Shown here piece by piece: positions 3,606 to 43,078 of a stretch of 43,078 nt of DNA (positions within the stretch are counted from its first letter, which is position 1; every line of letters starts with the position of its first letter). This DNA comes from an uncultured Actinomycetes bacterium (GTDB taxonomy: Bacteria > Actinomycetota > Actinomycetes > Nanopelagicales > Nanopelagicaceae), in NCBI GenBank assembly GCA_903825015.1, contig CAIJYZ010000067.1, positions 1 to 43,078 of the forward strand, in the 5' to 3' direction. A program made the position numbers and the translations under genes. The notes under the pieces are model-generated. The model was not told the DNA's origin, made no database searches, and saw only the letters and a program-made list of their open reading frames with translations.

Positions 3606-4438
3606 AGCGCTTTACCCACTTTATCCCACTGAACAAAAGAACCATCCATAACAGGTCCATCAATACATGAACGAAGCATCGATACATTTCCGGATTCATC
3701 TGCAACAGGTAAAACGCAGGTCATACAAATACCGATTCCGCATGCCATTGACTCTTCGACTGCGCATTGGTGAACAACATCTGTACCACGGGTAATCTCA
3801 TCGATTGCTGATAGCATCGCCATGGGTCCGCAAGAATAAATAACAGCGATATTGAGATCTTTAATTAGTTCAGAAATTGGTTCAGTTACGCGGCCTCTTT
3901 GGCCCATTGATCCATCCTCGGTGTAAATGCGTAGCGAGTTAACAGCGCGTTTACCTTCCATAGGAGCATAAATTTTGGAAGCAGTACTCGCGCCAAGCAA
4001 CATATCAACTCTGCAACCGCGCGTGTTCAAAGTTTCGGCTAATCCGAATAAAGGGGCTGAACCATAACCACCGCCGACAAGAAGCACCTGCACGGGTTCG
4101 GTAGGGATCCCAAAAGCTTTACCTAGCGGAACAACTACATCAAGAACAGCACCTTCATTTTGCTGACAGAGCCACTTACTTCCTTGTCCATGTGGGGCAA
4201 CAATCAACTCCATTGTTCCACCGAAAGTTGCGCTAACCGATACTCGCGAAATAGCGAATGCTCGACGCAAAACCATCCGTGAATTCTCTCCACCAACATT
4301 GATTGCAACAAAGTTACCTGGTTTGCATACACCGGCGAGGTCGCCAATATTAATTATTAGCTGGTGGTACTGACCCACGCGCTTATTACTGACAACCGAT
4401 GCTCGAATCTGTGCAGCATTTTTATTAATAGAGGACAT
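3602..4438 (-). CDS. pyrK: Dihydroorotate dehydrogenase class 1B electron-transfer subunit
   Basis: PyrK carries electrons from PyrD to NAD+ through FAD and a [2Fe-2S] cluster. The FAD region contains RRAFAISR. The nucleotide-binding region has LLVGGGYGSAPL and IYSCGPMAML. The C-terminal cluster ligands follow C-x4-C-x2-C-x16-C within ACGIGICMTCVLP and RSC. An in-frame ATG at 4453 would add five residues and overlap carB by 13 bases. I chose the ATG at 4438, 2 bases after the carB stop, because the extra residues look non-native, but neither start has a strong ribosome binding site. Confidence 0.92.
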   Translation of the reverse strand: MSSINKNAAQIRASVVSNKRVGQYHQLIINIGDLAGVCKPGNFVAINVGGENSRMVLRRAFAISRVSVSATFGGTMELIVAPHGQGSKWLCQQNEGAVLDVVVPLGKAFGIPTEPVQVLLVGGGYGSAPLFGLAETLNTRGCRVDMLLGASTASKIYAPMEGKRAVNSLRIYTEDGSMGQRGRVTEPISELIKDLNIAVIYSCGPMAMLSAIDEITRGTDVVHQCAVEESMACGIGICMTCVLPVADESGNVSMLRSCIDGPVMDGSFVQWDKVGKAL

Positions 4439-4440
4439 TA

Positions 4441-7400
4441 TCAAGCCAACCATTTTTGTAAGGATCTAATTGATAGTTCGTTTGCTTGCAAGAAGCGGAT
4501 TCCTTCCACAGCTGCACTGAATCCAGCAGTAGTGGTAATGATTGGAATAGAACGTTGTACTGATGCGGTACGAATCAACCAACCATCCTGACGTGTACCT
4601 CGGCCAACTGGCGTATTGATTACTAAATCAATATCACCTGAATTAATTATGTCCACGATAGTTCGCTCGCCCATCGGGCCAGTGCCTTCCGAGTTTTTGC
4701 GAACGGTAAAGCACGTTACGCCATGATTGCTCAAAAACGATGCCGTACCTTCAGTGGCGAGAATTCTAAATCCACATTCCTGCAGGCCTTGTGCCGGCAT
4801 AATCCCAGACTCTTTATCTTTATCGGCTAGAGAGATAAAAACCGTTCCGGATTTCGGGAGTGGACCAAAAGCTGCAATTTGACTCTTCGCATAACTTTCC
4901 CCAAATGTTGGAGAAATTCCCATCACTTCTCCCGTTGAACGCATCTCTGGTCCAAGGACAGCATCAACACCACGACCATCCGTTCGACGGAAACGATTCC
5001 AAGGTAGTACTGCTTCCTTAACTGAAATTCCTTTAGCCACTCCATCACCTTGCGCAGGTAAAACAGACTCTTCGCGTAACTGCGCAATTGTTGACCCCAC
5101 AGATATTCGTGCAGCAGCTTTTGCCAGCGGTACGCCAGTTGCTTTACTAACAAAGGGAACAGTACGAGATGCGCGGGGATTCGCCTCCAAAACATAAAGT
5201 TTTGAATCAGCGATTGCGAACTGAATATTAATCAGACCTCGCACATCTACTCCTCGTGCGATCTTTTCAGTAGCCGTACGGATCTCTTGTAGTTGTTGTG
5301 GTGTAACCGTCATCGAAGGCAGTACACATGCACTGTCTCCGCTATGAATACCGGCTTCCTCAATATGCTCCATCACTCCGCCTAAGAAAAGCTCATGGCC
5401 ATCAAATAAAGCATCCACATCTATTTCGATTGCACTGTCTAAAAATCTATCCACAAGAACCGGGTGATCCGGAGTGATATCCGTAGCTCGAGTGATAAAT
5501 CCGCCTAATGCCGCATCATCGTAAACAATTTCCATGCCTCGGCCGCCAAGAACAAATGATGGGCGCACTAAAACGGGATATCCAATGCGTTGGGCGATTG
5601 TTATCGCTTCTAACTGCGAAGATGCCATTCCAAACTCTGGTGCCGTTAGTCCTTGCTCAGCCAAAATATTTCCAAATGCTCCGCGCTCTTCAGCTAAGTT
5701 AATGGCATCCGGACTCGTTCCAAGAATGGTGATTCCTGCAGCCTTTAACCCAGCCGCTAAACCAAGTGGTGTCTGCCCGCCTAACTGTGTGATTACTCCA
5801 AGAACTGGACCCGCCATTGTTTCAGCGTGCACAACTTCAATCACATCCTCAAGTGTCAAGGGTTCAAAATAGAGACGGTTACTAGTGTCATAATCGGTAG
5901 AGACAGTCTCAGGGTTGCAGTTAATCATGATCGTTTCAAAACCGGCTTCGCGTAAAACAAAGGATGCATGCACACACGAATAATCAAATTCAATTCCTTG
6001 ACCTATACGATTTGGCCCGCTTCCCAAAATAATAACTGCGGGTGTCGTTCGTGGTCGTACTTCATTCTCTTCTTCATAACTTGAGTAGTGGTACGGAGTA
6101 AACGCTTCAAACTCGGCCGCACATGTATCTACGGTTTTATAGACAGGACGAATACCTAGATGATGTCGTTCTCGTCGTACTTCATCCTCGCTTAAACCTC
6201 TAAGTGCAGCAATTTGCGCATCCGAGAAACCATCAGACTTTGCATCACGCAAAAATTCTGAAGTTAATTCACCAGGCTGTGAAACTGCTAGAGCCTTTTC
6301 GTTAATAATCTGGATCTGACGCAAGTACCAAGGATCAATTTTTGTGGCGGCAAAAACTTCCTCAATTGAAGCTCCGGCCCACATAGATTTTTGAACTTGT
6401 TGCAGACGATATTCAGTAGGAATTGTCATTGAGATTAAGAGATTTTGCTTCTCTTGTTCACTTACTTGCGGCCAGGAAAATATCGCTTCCTTGCGCTCTA
6501 GTGATCGCAAAGCTTTCATTAGTGCTTCTGAAAAAGAGCGACCAATAGCCATCGCTTCGCCCACACTCTTCATTGTTGTAGTTAGGCGTGGGTCAGCATC
6601 AGCGAATTTTTCAAATGCAAAACGGGGAACTTTGACGACAACGTAATCCAAAGTCGGTTCAAATGATGCTGGGGTGACCTTCGTAATATCATTTTGAATT
6701 TCATCCAAGGTGTAACCGATAGCTAATTTCGTGGCGATTTTTGCGATAGGAAAACCAGTCGCTTTAGACGCCAAAGCACTTGAACGAGATACTCGCGGAT
6801 TCATTTCAATAACGATTATGCGACCGTTATCTGGGTTTACAGCAAATTGAATATTGCAGCCACCGGTATCAACACCAACTTCGCGAATAATATCCATGGA
6901 AAGATCGCGAAGTTTTTGATACTCGACATCGGTTAGTGTCATGGCTGGTGCAACTGTGATGGAATCCCCAGTATGTACGCCCATAGGATCTAGATTTTCA
7001 ATAGAACAAACAATCACCACGTTGTCTTTTCGATCACGCATGACTTCAAGTTCATATTCTTTCCATCCGAGAATGGATTCCTCTAGAAGAACTTCAGATG
7101 TTGGACTGTGTCGAAGGCCGGCACCGGCAATCTGACGTAGCTCTTGCTCATTGAAGGCAATACCTGATCCGAGACCACCCATTGTGAAAGAGGGGCGCAC
7201 GACAACTGGATAATTGAGTTGAACAACGGCGGCGAAGATTTCCTCCATGGTGTGACAGATAATGGATTTTGCCGACTCTCCCCCTACCTTTTCTACAATC
7301 GCTCTAAAAAGTTCGCGATTTTCACCTCGTTGGATTGCGTCAACATCAGCACCAATGAGCTTTACTCCATACTTTGCTAACGTGCCACGCTCGAACAGAC

Positions 7401-7701
7401 CGATGGCTGCGTTAAGGGCGGTTTGTCCCCCCAAAGTCGCCAATACTGCATCAGGCTTTTCAAAGGCGATAATTCTTTCAATAATTTCTGGCGTGATCGG
7501 TTCTATATATGTTGCGTCAGCAAACTCGGGATCGGTCATAATTGTTGCTGGATTCGAATTTACCAACACCACGCGTATACCTTCGGCCCGTAATACTCGG
7601 CATGCCTGCGTACCAGAATAATCAAATTCACATGCTTGGCCAATAACTATAGGACCGCTTCCAATTACAAGAACGCTTTTTATTGATGGATCTAGCGGCA
7701 T
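4441..7701 (-). CDS. carB: Carbamoyl-phosphate synthase large subunit
   Basis: CarB makes carbamoyl phosphate from bicarbonate, 2 ATP and ammonia channelled from CarA. It feeds pyrimidine and arginine synthesis. At 1086 residues it is full length. The N-terminal half starts [20 protein letters not shown], and the second half repeats this as [20 protein letters not shown]. Each half has an ATP-grasp domain (for example [14 protein letters not shown] and [16 protein letters not shown]). The C-terminal 130 or so residues form the MGS-like allosteric domain, including [18 protein letters not shown]. Its ATG shares one base with the carA stop (TAATG). Confidence 0.97.
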
Positions 7702-8816
7702 TAGATTCTCGCCTTCTTTGACATTAAATCAATGAAGCGATCAAATAGATAAGACGCATCATGCGGGCCTGCTGCAGCTTCTGGATGGTATTGAACGGAG
7801 AAAGCTGGGCCTTCTAGAAGTTGTAAACCTTCTACGACTCCATCGTTTAAGCAGATATGAGTAACTTCGCCAGGACCATAGACAGTAGTGAACTGAGCAT
7901 CAGTTGGTGCTTTCAACGCAAAACCATGGTTGTGCGCCGTGATTTCAACTTTTCCAGTGTTTTTATCGATAACAGGTTGATTGATTCCACGATGACCGAA
8001 CTGCAACTTGTAAGTCTCAAACCCAAGGGCCCGACCGAGAATTTGGTGGCCAAAACAAATCCCGAAAATAGGAATCTGTTTAATTAAAATTGAACGCACG
8101 AGTTCGATTGTGTCAGTCATCGATGCAGGATCACCAGGACCATTTGATAAAAAGACACCATCAGGATTAATTGCTTGAATATCAGCAAGTGATGAATCAA
8201 AGGGCATTATATGAACTTCTACTCCACGTTCTGCGAGCATTCGAGGAGTAGCAGCCTTTATACCCAAATCAAGAGCTGCGACTACGTATCTCTTTTCACC
8301 AATTGCAGGGACTACATAGGTAGCTGGTGTTGATACATCCTTAACTAAGTAGGCACCTGACATCTGTGGTGATTTACGTACTTCGACAACCATCTCTTCA
8401 CGGGAGAGTTCCATATTAGAAAAAATCCCTACGCGCATTGCACCGCGATCTCGCAAGTGCCTGGTAATTGCACGTGTATCAACATTTTGAATTCCAACAA
8501 TATTCTGGTTAATTAATTCGGTTTCCAAATCATTTTGTGAACGCCAGTTTGAAGTCAATGTCGATGGGTTTCGAACAACAAATCCTGCTACCCAGATTTT
8601 TGCTGACTCGTTATCAGCATCATTAACGCCAGTATTGCCTATATGCGGCGCAGTCATCACTACAACCTGCTTGTGATACGAAGGGTCAGTTAAAGTTTCC
8701 TGGTAACCGGTCATACCCGTCTGAAAAACCGCTTCTCCAAAAGTTTTCCCAGTTGCTCCCCATGATTTTCCTTCAAAGATGCGACCATCATCAAGTACAA
8801 GAAAAGCAACTGCCAT
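7701..8816 (-). CDS. carA: Carbamoyl-phosphate synthase small subunit (glutaminase)
   Basis: CarA hydrolyses glutamine and passes ammonia to CarB. Of its 371 residues, the N-terminal CPSase small domain shows [20 protein letters not shown] at 27-46. The class I glutaminase domain has SNGPGDP at 224-230, the nucleophile Cys254 in [10 protein letters not shown], and His344/Glu346 in YHPEAA. Both junctions are TAATG one-base overlaps (with pyrC upstream and carB downstream), so translation is probably coupled. In Mycobacterium and Streptomyces a small membrane-protein gene lies between pyrC and carA; it is absent here. Confidence 0.97.
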
Positions 8817-37730: not shown

Positions 37731-38223
37731 CGGACTCAAACTCGTATTTAACTGGCAATGGAGCATTACCGGCCAAGCGAAAAGTTCTGACAACAAACTT
37801 CTTACGAACCATCACGGTAGATGAAACTGCATCCGTATGAATAGAGATAGCAATTCTTATCTTTGCCGTCAAAGCTGAAAGCTCTTGTAGCAGCGCCTGT
37901 TCGGATTCAGTCGCGTGCGCCAAACCATCTGAGAGCAAGAGACCCAAGGCTCCTGATAAACCACTTTCGGCCATCGAGCGATTTTTGATTTCTGCATCAC
38001 GTGCTTGATAAGCAGCACCTGTTAGAAGCATCGATGAAGCCGGGTCGGCTAAATCGCTATGTGCTATTTCTAGGGCAATAGCCGCCCGCTTTTGAAGCAA
38101 TACATCTAAATTGGCCCAACTAGTTTCAACTCTATGATGAAGTCGATCCAAACGAGCTGCCGAAAATGATAGGTACCACAGCGCTAATAGTAAGAAAAAG
38201 CCGACCGTTAACCATGTTCTCAT
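37720..38223 (-). CDS. Single-pass membrane protein, LemA-like N-terminus
   Basis: The 167 residues start with a membrane helix (about 4-20) followed by LDRLHHRVETSWANLDVLLQ, which resembles LemA-family proteins, then a mostly helical extracytoplasmic or cytoplasmic domain. The rest (ALGLLLSDGLAHATESEQAL, KYEFESDVL) is not recognised. Similar small proteins stand downstream of pimA in other Actinobacteria. It overlaps pimA by 4 bases (ATGA), so it is probably translated with it. The function is unknown. Confidence 0.7.
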   Translation of the reverse strand: MRTWLTVGFFLLLALWYLSFSAARLDRLHHRVETSWANLDVLLQKRAAIALEIAHSDLADPASSMLLTGAAYQARDAEIKNRSMAESGLSGALGLLLSDGLAHATESEQALLQELSALTAKIRIAISIHTDAVSSTVMVRKKFVVRTFRLAGNAPLPVKYEFESDVL

Positions 38224-39404
38224 TTCTTTTCCTCATCACGTGATAAGAATCGATTCCAGGAACGATTATCAGAACCTAAAGTTACGCCTTCACCACCAAC
38301 GATTGCCATTTCATAGATTGAAAATATCTGCTCTGCAACCACATCCCAATCAAAGAGTTCAGAGCGTGCCTTACCAGCAGCAGCTAAATCCTTACGTTTT
38401 TTATCATCGCGCAGCAAATCTATGACTACTTTCGCAAGATCTGTTGAGTTTTCAGATTCAAATAGTGCGCCGAATTCACCGCCTCCAAGTAATGAATCAA
38501 AAGCAGGAATGTCACTGGCAACAACGCATGCACCACCAGCCAAAGCTTCGGCCAAAATTATTCCGAATGATTCCCCGCCAGTATTAGGGGCGACATAGAG
38601 CGAGATCGAAGACATGAAATCTGCCTTCTCTTCTTCAGAGATGCGGCCTAAGAATTCAAAGCGCTTTCGCAGCTGTGGATCAATCTGTTTTTCAACGTCT
38701 TTAGGATCACCTGGTCCTGCAACCAGAACTCTTACGTCAGGCGCAAAACGTGAAATTATCGGTAGAGCATCAACTAGAACTTGCAAACCCTTGCGTGGCT
38801 CTTCAAATCTTCCGATAAATCCAATTGTGTTTCCTTGCCACTTCTCCTGCGCAACACCCTCGGCATATCTTTTTGCGTAGATTCCATTTGGAATAACTAC
38901 CGCATCGGTTTCCAGATGATCAGTGAGCGTTAAGCGAGCAGCCTCTGATACCGCTATCCGAGCATTGAGTTTTTCTATAGCCGGCTCGAGAATTGGTCCG
39001 ATTGCAAAGATTACTTTCTGGCGTTTAGCAGCAGCATGAAATGTTCCAACCATCGGTCCTTCAGCAGCCCAGCAAGCTAGTAATGAAATCGATGGAATCG
39101 CAGGTTCATGCAAGTGCAACAAATCAAAATTACCGCTACTAATCCATTGACGTACTCGTGCATATGCAATTGGACCAAAAAGTACACGTGCAACTGCCCC
39201 GTTATAAGGAATTGATATTGGTTTACCCGCACTTACAACATAACTTGGCAGTTTGTCCTCATCGATTGCTGGTGCAAGCACCGAGACATCATGACCAGCG
39301 GCTATGAGAAATTCGGCTAAATCGCGGATGTGATTCTGTACTCCACCGGGAGTATCCCAACCATAAGGACAAACGATTCCGATTTTGAGTTTCTTAGTGA
39401 GCAT
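38220..39404 (-). CDS. pimA: Phosphatidylinositol mannosyltransferase PimA (GT4)
   Basis: PimA adds the first mannose from GDP-mannose to phosphatidylinositol on the cytoplasmic membrane face. The 394 residues are a GT-B glycosyltransferase: GGVQNHIRDLAEFLIAAGHD near the N-terminus, FIGRFEEPRKGLQVLVDALP for the nucleotide phosphates, and the E-x7-E-like GGESFGIILAEALAGG. The assignment rests on family motifs plus the pgsA-patA-pimA context. It shares a base with the patA stop (TAATG). Confidence 0.93.
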   Translation of the reverse strand: MLTKKLKIGIVCPYGWDTPGGVQNHIRDLAEFLIAAGHDVSVLAPAIDEDKLPSYVVSAGKPISIPYNGAVARVLFGPIAYARVRQWISSGNFDLLHLHEPAIPSISLLACWAAEGPMVGTFHAAAKRQKVIFAIGPILEPAIEKLNARIAVSEAARLTLTDHLETDAVVIPNGIYAKRYAEGVAQEKWQGNTIGFIGRFEEPRKGLQVLVDALPIISRFAPDVRVLVAGPGDPKDVEKQIDPQLRKRFEFLGRISEEEKADFMSSISLYVAPNTGGESFGIILAEALAGGACVVASDIPAFDSLLGGGEFGALFESENSTDLAKVVIDLLRDDKKRKDLAAAGKARSELFDWDVVAEQIFSIYEMAIVGGEGVTLGSDNRSWNRFLSRDEEKK

Positions 39405-40288
39405 TACTCACGCTCCTTGAAATCGCCATCAATCCAAATGCGTTGCATCATGTGCCAATCCGCCGGGTATTGACTGATCCCTCTGGCAAAATGATCAGCC
39501 GATTGCTGCACGAGTAATTCAACTTTTTCACTTTCACTACCTGTTGTAGGAATTTCGATTTGAGTTAAGTCGATATGAATTCCACTATCGGTGTATGAAA
39601 TATATGCGCTCAAGAAAGGTGCGCCAGTTCGAAGTGCAAGTAGAGCTGGTCCAGCAGGCATTCGCGCAGGCCCACCAAAGAATGTGACATCTATGCCCGA
39701 TCGTGACAAATCACGGTCTGCTGCTAACGCTATTACGCATCCACTGCGCACTCGTTGCATAAGAGTTGGAATTACTCGGCCATCAAGAGGTAACGCTTCC
39801 ATTCCAAAATCTGCGCGATATTGCATGAACTTCTTGAAGAGTTTCTCAGGCTTTAGGTGTTCAGCCACAGTTACAAGCTTTGCCCCTTTGGCACAAAAAT
39901 ATGCGGCAGCATGATCGTAATTGCCGCAGTGCGGCAGGGTGACGATCACACCATTTCCAGCAGCAATTGCGTTAATTAATAGCGATTCATCATTAAAGGT
40001 TACGGTAGAAAGGATTCTCTCCTGAGACCAATCGGGCAACCTGAATGTGTCACACCAATATCGAAGTGCAGAACGCATCGCTCTGTAAATCAGAAGATCT
40101 AAATCTAGAGAAGTAATCCCTGGCTGTGTTCTAGCTAAATTCGAACGCAATCGCTTAACGCTACTTCCATCTTTGCGGACCAAATAGTCCGCAACTTTAT
40201 TTGCAGATCCATAAACAAAATCTTCAGGAAGCCATCGCAACAAACGCCAGGCAGCAAAATATCCCCAGGCAGTAATGTTTTCAATCAT
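39404..40288 (-). CDS. patA: Phosphatidylinositol mannoside acyltransferase
   Basis: This LpxL/HtrB-like enzyme acylates the mannose of PIM1/PIM2 (Rv2611c homologue). The 294 residues have the H-x4-D motif HCGNYD (His120, Asp125), ALAADRDLSRSGIDVTFFGG and APFLSAYIS. I start at 40288, where ATG overlaps the pgsA stop (ATGA). The frame extends to 40360, but those residues lie inside pgsA. It is membrane-associated, with a hydrophobic N-terminal stretch (AWGYFAAWRLLRWLP). Confidence 0.92.
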   Translation of the reverse strand: MIENITAWGYFAAWRLLRWLPEDFVYGSANKVADYLVRKDGSSVKRLRSNLARTQPGITSLDLDLLIYRAMRSALRYWCDTFRLPDWSQERILSTVTFNDESLLINAIAAGNGVIVTLPHCGNYDHAAAYFCAKGAKLVTVAEHLKPEKLFKKFMQYRADFGMEALPLDGRVIPTLMQRVRSGCVIALAADRDLSRSGIDVTFFGGPARMPAGPALLALRTGAPFLSAYISYTDSGIHIDLTQIEIPTTGSESEKVELLVQQSADHFARGISQYPADWHMMQRIWIDGDFKERE

Positions 40289-40884
40289 GCGTGCAATGCC
40301 CTGCGCACTATCAACATTCTTTGTACGACAGTGATTGAACCCAGAACCGCAAGGAGCCACATTCCAATAGCCAAAACAAATGGCACGTGTAAACCCTCTA
40401 GTGCTATTGCCGACATCGCAATAATTAATCTTTCAGTACGTTCGGCGATTCCACCGGTGCACTCGATTGCAAAGCTTTCGGCCTTTGCTCGAATATATGG
40501 AACAAGTAAACCTGTAACAAGTGTTACTAGCACGACCGTACTCAATCGATCATCTTTGTTTATAAGGTAGACAGCCAGTCCTAAAAGAATCGATGAATCA
40601 GTTATGCGGTCAATTGTCGAATCAAGAAAGCTGCCCCATTTACTAGCCCCGGCTTTTGAAATTCTTGCCATGGTGCCATCAAAAAGATCACTTAATGCAA
40701 ATACGGCGATTACTGCAGTTCCTAGAAAGAAGTCACCTCTTGGATAGAAAATCAATGCCGAGGCGATCACTCCAATGGCACCTACCCAGGTGACCCCATT
40801 GGGAGTAATCCCAATACGCAGGGCGGCAGAGGCTACGGGTGTTATTAATCTCGTAACCGCGGGTTTTAAAGAACGACTAATCAT
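40285..40884 (-). CDS. pgsA: Phosphatidylinositol phosphate synthase (CDP-alcohol phosphatidyltransferase)
   Basis: By context and family this is the actinobacterial enzyme joining CDP-diacylglycerol and inositol 1-phosphate. The 199 residues are mostly membrane helices. The CDP-alcohol motif D-x2-DG-x2-AR-x9-G-x3-D-x3-D is complete: Asp66, Asp69, Gly70, Ala73, Arg74, Gly84, Asp88, Asp92. It heads the pgsA-patA-pimA operon. A -10-like TACGAT with 8 bases to the ATG suggests a leaderless start. Another CDP-alcohol substrate cannot be ruled out from sequence alone. Confidence 0.92.
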   Translation of the reverse strand: MISRSLKPAVTRLITPVASAALRIGITPNGVTWVGAIGVIASALIFYPRGDFFLGTAVIAVFALSDLFDGTMARISKAGASKWGSFLDSTIDRITDSSILLGLAVYLINKDDRLSTVVLVTLVTGLLVPYIRAKAESFAIECTGGIAERTERLIIAMSAIALEGLHVPFVLAIGMWLLAVLGSITVVQRMLIVRRALHA

Positions 40885-40892
40885 TAAGGCAC

Positions 40893-40898
40893 ATCGTA
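40893..40898 (-). promoter_or_regulatory. Candidate -10 element of the leaderless pgsA promoter
   Basis: TACGAT on the minus strand is followed by GTGCCTTA and the ATG at 40884, with no Shine-Dalgarno. It overlaps by two bases the -10 candidate of the divergent gene at 40909. Confidence 0.45.
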
Positions 40899-40902
40899 GG
40901 CT
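40897..40902 (+). promoter_or_regulatory. Candidate -10 element of the leaderless promoter of the EF-G-like gene
   Basis: TAGGCT is followed by GACCCA and the GTG start at 40909, with no Shine-Dalgarno. The whole intergenic space to pgsA is 24 bases, so both promoters must share it. Confidence 0.45.
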
Positions 40903-40908
40903 GACCCA

Positions 40909-41493
40909 GTGCCTAATTACACATCTGACCTGAAACTAGCCGTCTTTGGTCACGAAAGCGCACACCTTGAAGAGGTGGCGCAGGCTTTTGGCGCAGCAAT
41001 TGCCCAAGAGGTTTCAGTCGATATTGACTGTGCGATATTTGCGATTAATCCAAATACTGGAATCGATCAACATACTATTGATCTTTGGCAGGGTTTTGAT
41101 GAATACCTAGTGCCACGAATCGTTGTTGTCACGGACCTAGAAAAAGATGCGGGCGATTTTGATGACGCAGTTATGCTCGCCAATCGAGTATTTGATCAGA
41201 TAGCAACTCCATACTTAGTTCTCCACGATGATGACGGACTCCCCCGCGCTTTAATTTGCCTTTCAGATATGACGGTAATCGATTATTCAACTACTCCGCC
41301 GACGCAGGCCACTAGTGAACCCGAGCATGAAACTTTGGTGCAAGAGTTTCGTGATGAATATTTAGAACTTGTTACTTCAATGGGCCAAGATGCATTTTCG
41401 GCAGGCGTGTTGTTTCCGGCGATTCCGTTGTGGATCGAAAAAGGTTTGGGTGTTGATATCGTAATTACATATTTGAATCAGCTACAAAAATAA
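40909..41493 (+). CDS. Degenerate EF-G-derived pseudo-GTPase, stand-alone
   Basis: The 194 residues align by eye to the G and G' domains of elongation factor G or EF-G-like proteins. LAVFGHESAHLEE (10-22) stands where the P-loop GHxxxGKT should be. NTGIDQHTIDLWQGFDEYLV and PRIVVVTDLEKDAGDF (49-84) match the EF-G stretch with GVxxQTxxxW, VPRIxFVNKMDRxGADF. A G'-like part (PRALICLSDMTVIDY; EHETLVQEFRDEYLELV) and a C-terminal AGVLFPAIPLWIEKGLGVDI follow. The GKT and NKxD residues are lost and the switch regions are missing, so GTP binding is unlikely. The start is GTG. Tail-to-tail with the HIT gene without a gap. Its role is unknown. Confidence 0.7.
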   Translation: MPNYTSDLKLAVFGHESAHLEEVAQAFGAAIAQEVSVDIDCAIFAINPNTGIDQHTIDLWQGFDEYLVPRIVVVTDLEKDAGDFDDAVMLANRVFDQIATPYLVLHDDDGLPRALICLSDMTVIDYSTTPPTQATSEPEHETLVQEFRDEYLELVTSMGQDAFSAGVLFPAIPLWIEKGLGVDIVITYLNQLQK

Positions 41494-42015
41494 TTACCAA
41501 GCAGCGCTAATTTCATCTCTAGTTACAGTCAGAAGTTGTGGCAACACTTTGGTCTTGCCAATGATTGGCATGAAATTAGCATCACCACTCCAACGCGGCA
41601 CAATATGTTGGTGGATGTGTTCAGCAACTCCCGCGCCAGAAATTGCGCCTTGGTTCATGCCCAAATTGAAACCCTCTGGGGATGAAACTTTTCGCACGGT
41701 AGTCATTGCGTGTGCAGTGAGCTCAGTGATCTCACTACGTTCGGTTGGAGATAAATCGGTCAAGTCAGGAACATGTCGATAGGCACACACCAAAAGATGA
41801 CTTGGGTTGTATGGATAAAGATTCATAACCACAAAAGCTGTTGTGCCACGGTGAACAATCAGGCCTTCCTCATCACTTAATGTGGGGATTCGGCAAAAAG
41901 GACATGCAACTTCATTGTCAGCCAGCGGCCGATTTTCACCGCGTAAATATTCAAGGCGATGGGGCGTCCATAAACGCTGCCAACCATCTGGCATACCTGC
42001 ACCATCGATTGTCAT
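41494..42015 (-). CDS. HIT family protein, probable Ap4A phosphorylase-like
   Basis: HIT proteins hydrolyse or phosphorolyse nucleotide derivatives. The 173 residues have the histidine triad HIHQHIVPRW near 135-144, preceded by GFNLGMNQGAISGAGVAEH, and an N-terminal CPFCRI that could hold zinc together with a downstream His. The homologue at this position in Mycobacterium (Rv2613c) is described as a diadenosine tetraphosphate phosphorylase. It starts 3 bases after thrS, and the thrS-HIT-pgsA order is conserved except for the inserted plus-strand gene. Confidence 0.88.
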   Translation of the reverse strand: MTIDGAGMPDGWQRLWTPHRLEYLRGENRPLADNEVACPFCRIPTLSDEEGLIVHRGTTAFVVMNLYPYNPSHLLVCAYRHVPDLTDLSPTERSEITELTAHAMTTVRKVSSPEGFNLGMNQGAISGAGVAEHIHQHIVPRWSGDANFMPIIGKTKVLPQLLTVTRDEISAAW

Positions 42016-42018
42016 TGA

Positions 42019-43078
42019 TTAAACCTGAGTGCGTTCTGCAACTACTTTTTGAATCTCTGAAATTGCTTGAGCAATAGGAATCCCATTTTTTTGTTCACCA
42101 TTACGGTAACGGAACGAAACCGCACCTGCGGCCATATCTTCTTCGCCCGCAATAACCATAAACGGAATCTTCTGCATCTGTGCGTTGCGCACCTTCTTTT
42201 GCATGCGGTCATCCGATGAATCAAGTTCGGCACGGATGCCAGCGCTGCGCATCGCCTTAATGACATCAGCCAAATAATCTGCAAATGCTTCTGCTACCGG
42301 AATTCCAACTGCTTGCACTGGTGCAAGCCATGGTGGAAATGCACCTGAATAGTGTTCAGTGAGAACTCCAAAGAATCGCTCGATGGAACCAAATAGCGCA
42401 CGGTGAATCATTACTGGGCGTTGACGAGTTCCATCGGCTGCTGAGTATTCAAGTTCAAAACGCTGTGGAAGTTGGAAATCAACTTGAATCGTAGACATCT
42501 GCCATGTTCTACCGATTGCATCTTTTGCTTGCACAGAAATCTTTGGACCGTAAAAAGCAGCTCCACCTTCATCGAGAACGAGTTCAAGATTTTGAGCAAC
42601 TGCAGCCTTGCGAAGAGTTTCAGTAGCTTCTTCCCAATCTGCATCTTCTCCAACAAACTTTTCAGGATTCTTGGTCGATAGTTCAAGGTAAAAATCATTA
42701 AGGCCATAGTCACGCAGCAAATTAAGAACGAAAGTTAATAAGGAATCAAGTTCATCAGCCATCTGCTCTTTTGTGCAGTAAATATGTGCATCGTCTTGGG
42801 TAAATCCACGGGCACGAGTAATGCCATGGAGAACTCCAGATTTTTCGTATCGATAAACAGTTCCAAATTCGAAAAGACGCAATGGAAGTTCGCGGTATGA
42901 GCGCTGACGCGCCTGAAAAATCAAATTATGGAAAGGGCAGTTCATTGGCTTCATGTAGTACTGCTGTCCAGGCTTTTTAATTGTTCCATCGGCATGGAGC
43001 TCTTCATCCATGATCATTGGCGGATACATTCCCTCTGAGTACCAATCTAGGTGACCAGATTTTTCAAAAAGTGCGGCT
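42019..43078 (-). CDS. thrS: Threonyl-tRNA synthetase, 5' part outside window
   Basis: ThrS charges tRNA(Thr). The frame is open through the right edge of the window; residues before the first internal Met read [14 protein letters not shown], the usual ThrS core lead-in. Visible parts are the catalytic core with [12 protein letters not shown], motif 2 ([15 protein letters not shown]), [15 protein letters not shown], motif 3 ([16 protein letters not shown]) and the C-terminal anticodon-binding domain. The N-terminal TGS and editing domains lie beyond base 43078. About 353 codons are seen. Confidence 0.95.

Follow-up and report, generated by a model that had tools for sequence, protein, structure and literature searches.

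The window, that is, the whole 43,078-nt stretch of DNA analyzed here, carries an open reading frame on its plus strand at 40909-41493, which encodes 194 amino acids from a GTG start codon and, as the initial annotation had read it, contains no internal stop codon. The frame lies antisense to a gene row for threonyl-tRNA synthetase (ThrS), a HIT-family protein, and PgsA. The following features were assigned.

38220-39404, minus strand: GT4 glycosyltransferase, a neighbor
39404-40360, minus strand: acyltransferase (Lip_A_acyltrans), a neighbor
40285-40884, minus strand: PgsA-type CDP-alcohol phosphatidyltransferase, divergent from the EF-G2 remnant and 24 bp apart from it
40892-40902, no strand assigned: 11-bp motif CATCGTAGGCT, with a -10-like TAGGCT for the plus-strand gene overlapping TACGAT for pgsA on the minus strand; putative promoter
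40909-41493, plus strand: frame assigned to a reduced EF-G2 gene (stand-alone pseudo-G domain with G' insert), 194 aa, GTG start, TAA stop; from HMM, alignment, AlphaFold2, and structure comparison
40942-40968, plus strand: former P-loop, VFGHESAHL, lysine lost; from alignment
41131-41142, plus strand: former NKxD motif, reading TDLE; from alignment
41152-41199, plus strand: DFDD helix that follows the former G4 motif; shares top conservation with the G' strands
41200-41292, plus strand: G' subdomain strands with strong conservation (TPYLVLHDD.G.P.ALI.L....DYS)
41317-41382, plus strand: counterpart of helix A in the EF-G G' subdomain, which spans about residues 208-229 in E. coli and faces bL12 in EF-G; its acidic positions are conserved
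41494-42015, minus strand: HIT-family protein, convergent, its stop codon adjoining that of the EF-G2 remnant
42019-43077, minus strand: presumably threonyl-tRNA synthetase (thrS), named by its motifs, partial at the window edge

The protein was compared in an alignment of 54 members of the reduced family, E. coli EF-G, and 20 full-length EF-G2 sequences. Its segments run as strand 1, a gap in place of the switches, strand 3, TDLE, the DFDD helix, the G' strands, helix A, the strand preceding G5, and the last helix. Relative to full-length proteins, the switch region is shorter by about 63 residues, about 22 more have been lost behind helix A, and nothing is left of domains II to V, so that the five-domain architecture of EF-G2 is absent. 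The EF-G-like segments pointed out in the initial annotation (G..Q.T...W, VPRI...., ADF, the G' helix, and the C-terminal G...) are present and conserved, and its reading of a lost P-loop lysine, NKxD changed to TDLE, and deleted switches agrees with the alignment to E. coli EF-G. Switch I and switch II (G2 and G3) have been deleted from essentially every one of the 54 members, G5 is gone, and NKxD, which has become TDLE in the window protein, is not maintained across the family. The protein therefore lacks the motifs G1, G3, and G4 of a GTP-binding EF-G2, and the GTP site is lost in all 54 aligned members. As judged from these sequences, nucleotide binding has very probably been lost, and hydrolysis and switching by the remnant are very unlikely.

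HMM or structure-based comparison, an ortholog search at the same locus in relatives, and a dN/dS analysis had been proposed as checks with the initial annotation, and all of these were carried out. The NCBIfam EF-G2 model NF009377 matched the protein with an E-value of 2.1e-17 and 62.8 bits, which is below the curated cut-off of 890 bits for that model, and PDB entry 9k0z (by its title, M. smegmatis EF-G2 on the 70S ribosome) was matched with an E-value of 5.6e-12. The Pfam GTP_EFTU match was weak (E 0.075, below the Pfam cut-off), as is expected of a G domain without its motifs. An AlphaFold2 model built from the 54-row alignment (pLDDT 90.8, pTM 0.86) matched the G domains of EF-G at Z values of up to 21.6, with 192 of 194 residues superposed and EF-G residues 5-281 covered. 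The product is thus a pseudo-GTPase in the sense of a G-domain fold without nucleotide motifs. The kinship with the G domain of EF-G proposed at the outset is far beyond chance similarity, and it can be refined, because sequence and locus together mark the gene as an ortholog of EF-G2 (FusA2). We conclude that 40909-41493 is almost certainly an EF-G2 (fusA2) gene that was reduced in place and is kept under constraint, and that its parent was the EF-G2 paralogue at this site and not EF-G1. Viral contigs and phage records were also searched for relatives; none was found, and a phage or viral origin was rejected.

Within the genus, most of the closest pairs had an omega of 0.05-0.12, and the median of 75 pairs was 0.103, compared with 0.105 for pgsA, 0.053 for HIT, and 0.058 for thrS, all values being from the NG86 counting method only. 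These values indicate purifying selection. Because the minus strand across 40909-41493 is full of stop codons, the constraint belongs to the plus-strand protein; the same stop codons ruled out a second, antisense gene within the frame. That the DNA is kept as an antisense RNA, a terminator, or a spacer between HIT and pgsA, a role which its position antisense to the thrS-HIT-pgsA row might suggest, is very improbable, since changes are concentrated at synonymous sites and the minus strand has so many stops. Equally, the loss of about 530 residues and of all GTP motifs, together with broken copies in a few assemblies (G008, G024, and G030), could be taken as signs of a decaying pseudogene whose frame has survived by chance. 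This explanation is barely credible against the low omega, the conserved start and promoter-like motif, and a frame that is open in nearly all of approximately 150 genomes in 13 genera, at identities between orthologs down to about 30%; a fresh pseudogene is ruled out by omega. Same-locus orthologs, low omega, and the EF-G fold thus support the view, already put forward in the initial annotation, that the remnant is a conserved pseudo-GTPase.

Orthologs were found at the same locus across the order: a match was present in 147 of 151 genomes, mostly metagenome assemblies, and in all 15 genera, with a form of approximately 200 aa in 13 genera, a form of approximately 325-350 aa in one (g31), and a full-length protein in one (g38). 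The g38 protein (locus L101), which belongs to the window's own family, has five Pfam domains and an intact P-loop (GHSGSGKTT). The record titles of close relatives name Candidatus Planktophila and acI isolates, e.g., IMCC19121. In other relatives of the class, full-length EF-G2 occupied the same locus, strand, and order in 17 of 19 loci checked, some of them partial at contig ends. The row in these relatives has genes for a glycosyltransferase, an acyltransferase, and PgsA on one strand and EF-G2 on the other, followed by HIT and thrS. Full-length EF-G2 at this place in relatives, and full-length and 325-350-aa forms within the family, mean that the reduction took place in situ. The earlier suggestion that it interrupts a HIT-pgsA neighborhood is thus refuted, EF-G2 being the ancestral occupant.

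Some loci deviate in detail. At L101, two extra genes lie between EF-G2 and HIT (6135-7715), which, by their motifs, would encode a homocysteine-methyltransferase-like protein and a TrmH-like RNA methyltransferase. About 700-900 bp extra separate the remnant from HIT in L015 (about 2065-2785) and L082 (about 3871-4755), and HIT was undetected between the remnant and thrS in genus g36 (L099 and L111). The remnant of L028/L195 (BS11) is split into two overlapping frames by a frameshift or a sequencing error. Three metagenome-assembled genomes (L175, L183, and L188) bear titles naming Bifidobacterium breve and Streptomyces griseus; their locus is Planktophila-like, and they are probably mislabelled.

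The g31 form may represent an intermediate of the reduction. Its model shows a beta-alpha-beta-beta-alpha-beta succession after the G domain, the tail having a pLDDT of about 62, and can be superposed on EF-G residues 10-673; the alignment behind the model contained domain V rows. By hhalign against full-length EF-G2, the tail aligned at the position of domain V, weakly (E 0.032). The 325-350-aa form is thus modeled as a G domain probably followed by domain V. The C-terminal extensions of g63 and g85 gave nothing convincing in the same comparison.

Reduced EF-G2 also stands at the same locus in two more families of the class. Those of f39 are about 340-360 aa, and those of f34 range from 198 to 423 aa in several genera, other f34 genera having full-length proteins. 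In a tree of neighboring genes, full-length f34 rows fell among reduced rows, and a single clade of reduced f34 sequences was rejected (AU p 6e-58, the tested grouping having been chosen after a first tree); a single event for the window's family, comprising g31 and the 200-aa forms, was not rejected (AU p 0.38). If reduction is irreversible, f34 would account for about four reductions of EF-G2, f39 for one, and the window's family for one or two. Together these make at least about six independent events, a count that comes from short-search trees and assumes no regain by recombination. A tree from the retained G core alone was poorly resolved and added nothing to the count, and the placement of L144/L145 (g118) is unreliable, HIT and ThrS not having been found on their loci. 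Several small-genome genera of f39 (g112-g115) and of f5 gave no EF-G2-type match, only weak matches to other translational GTPases, which suggests complete loss of EF-G2.

The 24 bp between pgsA and the remnant hold the conserved 11-bp motif. A TAGGCT box of the form TANNNT lies 6 nt before the GTG codon of the remnant, in keeping with the promoter candidate noticed at the outset, and TACGAT lies about 7-8 nt before the ATG codon of pgsA on the minus strand. The motif is kept across nearly all genera and at most loci of the family, and the host genome has a single copy. A search near pgsA in the other families checked did not find it, and the generic pattern TANNNT-N6-RTG was not enriched within the window. 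From this arrangement we infer that the motif may comprise overlapping -10 boxes of a leaderless bidirectional promoter.

Conservation within the remnant is uneven: the DFDD helix scored 0.575, the G' strands 0.562, and helix A 0.475, against a mean of 0.449. The protein has a G' subdomain with an acidic helix A, as is characteristic of bL12-binding factors, and its acidic positions are partly those of E. coli EF-G. Among the 54 members, they are 139 (100%), 146 (96%), 150 (100%), 153 (67%), and 160 (69%), of which positions 153 and 160 align with E. coli E224 and E231, respectively; E228 has no consistent acidic counterpart. F147 (54/54), E150 (52/54), and Y151 (43/54) are characteristic of the reduced family and not of full-length EF-G2, a pattern that suggests a new constraint after reduction.

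In EF-G, glutamates of G' (helix A) contact L7/L12, and they are mostly conserved in M. tuberculosis EF-G2 (PMC8446442); likewise, the C-terminal domain of uL12m binds G' of EF-G1mt (PMC7395135). M. smegmatis EF-G2 showed no ribosome-dependent GTPase activity (PMC3832671); working without GTP would therefore be no break with the ancestor. The conservation of the DFDD helix and G' strands, the acidic helix A, the G'-L12 contacts of EF-G, and the result on M. smegmatis EF-G2 together favor docking at the stalk. Our preferred reading is that an EF-G2 reduced in place and held under constraint would serve as a GTP-independent docking module on the bL12 stalk, and we give this proposal as a whole a probability of roughly 0.4. 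By analogy with EF-G, the retained G' insert with helix A might bind bL12, a step we put forward tentatively. At the stalk, the remnant would modulate how translation factors are recruited or compete with that recruitment, or it would act as a tether to the ribosome.

The g31 intermediate, which keeps the G domain and probably domain V, counts for stalk docking. Three observations count against it. Only about two thirds of the members have an acidic residue at the equivalents of E224 and E231, and E228 lacks a steady counterpart; conservation peaks in the DFDD helix and G' strands and not in helix A; and relatives that were reduced independently retain parts of domain II and not domain V, which means that the stalk-facing parts are not always those retained. 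The two segments at the top may be conserved for core packing or for contact with another partner. If that partner lies off the ribosome, for example among the products of the pgsA, acyltransferase, and glycosyltransferase genes, the remnant would act as a scaffold through these two segments, in keeping with their conservation over helix A, with F147, E150, and Y151 being fixed or nearly so though absent from full-length EF-G2, and with the back-to-back position to pgsA with a compact promoter-like element in common. The locus was, however, the home of EF-G2 before reduction, so its nearness to pgsA was inherited and does not have to reflect a common function; we regard such a scaffold as somewhat unlikely. 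A direct regulator of EF-G or ribosomes, for example a GTP-independent modulator of hibernation or recycling placed, like EF-G2, at the stalk base, with G plus V as the minimal form, would fit the probable domain V of g31 and the structure of M. smegmatis EF-G2 on the 70S ribosome (9k0z, by its title), a protein without ribosome-dependent GTPase activity (PMC3832671). The contacts of the switches and with the sarcin-ricin loop need parts that are missing here, however, and 13 genera manage without domain V; we regard this regulator as unlikely.

The remnant is carried by, among others, Planktophila and its relatives, which rank with the commonest freshwater bacteria and have streamlined genomes, from which useless genes are expected to be lost. 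To our knowledge, actinobacterial EF-G2 has no agreed function. Lineages that keep only G and G' under selection point to the part of EF-G2 that bears the conserved role, which can be tested with a 194-residue protein. The broadest version of the preferred stalk reading, in which small-genome actinobacteria have repeatedly and independently cut EF-G2 down to a stalk-binding module that needs no GTP and regulates factor recruitment, is doubtful; if true, it would define a class of translational pseudo-GTPases and show that EF-G2 can fulfill its conserved role without GTPase activity.

Among known systems, the remnant resembles actinobacterial EF-G2/FusA2 (NF009377; 9k0z) in position, strand, sequence orthology, and a G-domain fold with the G' insert. 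It differs in having 194 aa instead of about 700-750 and in lacking the P-loop lysine, the switches, NKxD, G5, and domains II-V. With EF-G1 (fusA), the bacterial translocase, it shares the G-domain fold and G' subdomain (Z 21.6), whereas EF-G1 is an essential five-domain protein that binds GTP, and the host genomes still have a separate gene for it. The G domain of RF3 has a related translational GTPase fold but ranked structurally more distant than EF-G, and RF3, unlike the remnant, is a functional GTPase with further domains. The reduced EF-G2 forms of f34 and f39 share the locus, the loss of the switches, and the retention of the core and G', whereas they appear to be independent reductions, and some f34 forms, at about 350-420 aa, still have a P-loop or a portion of domain II.
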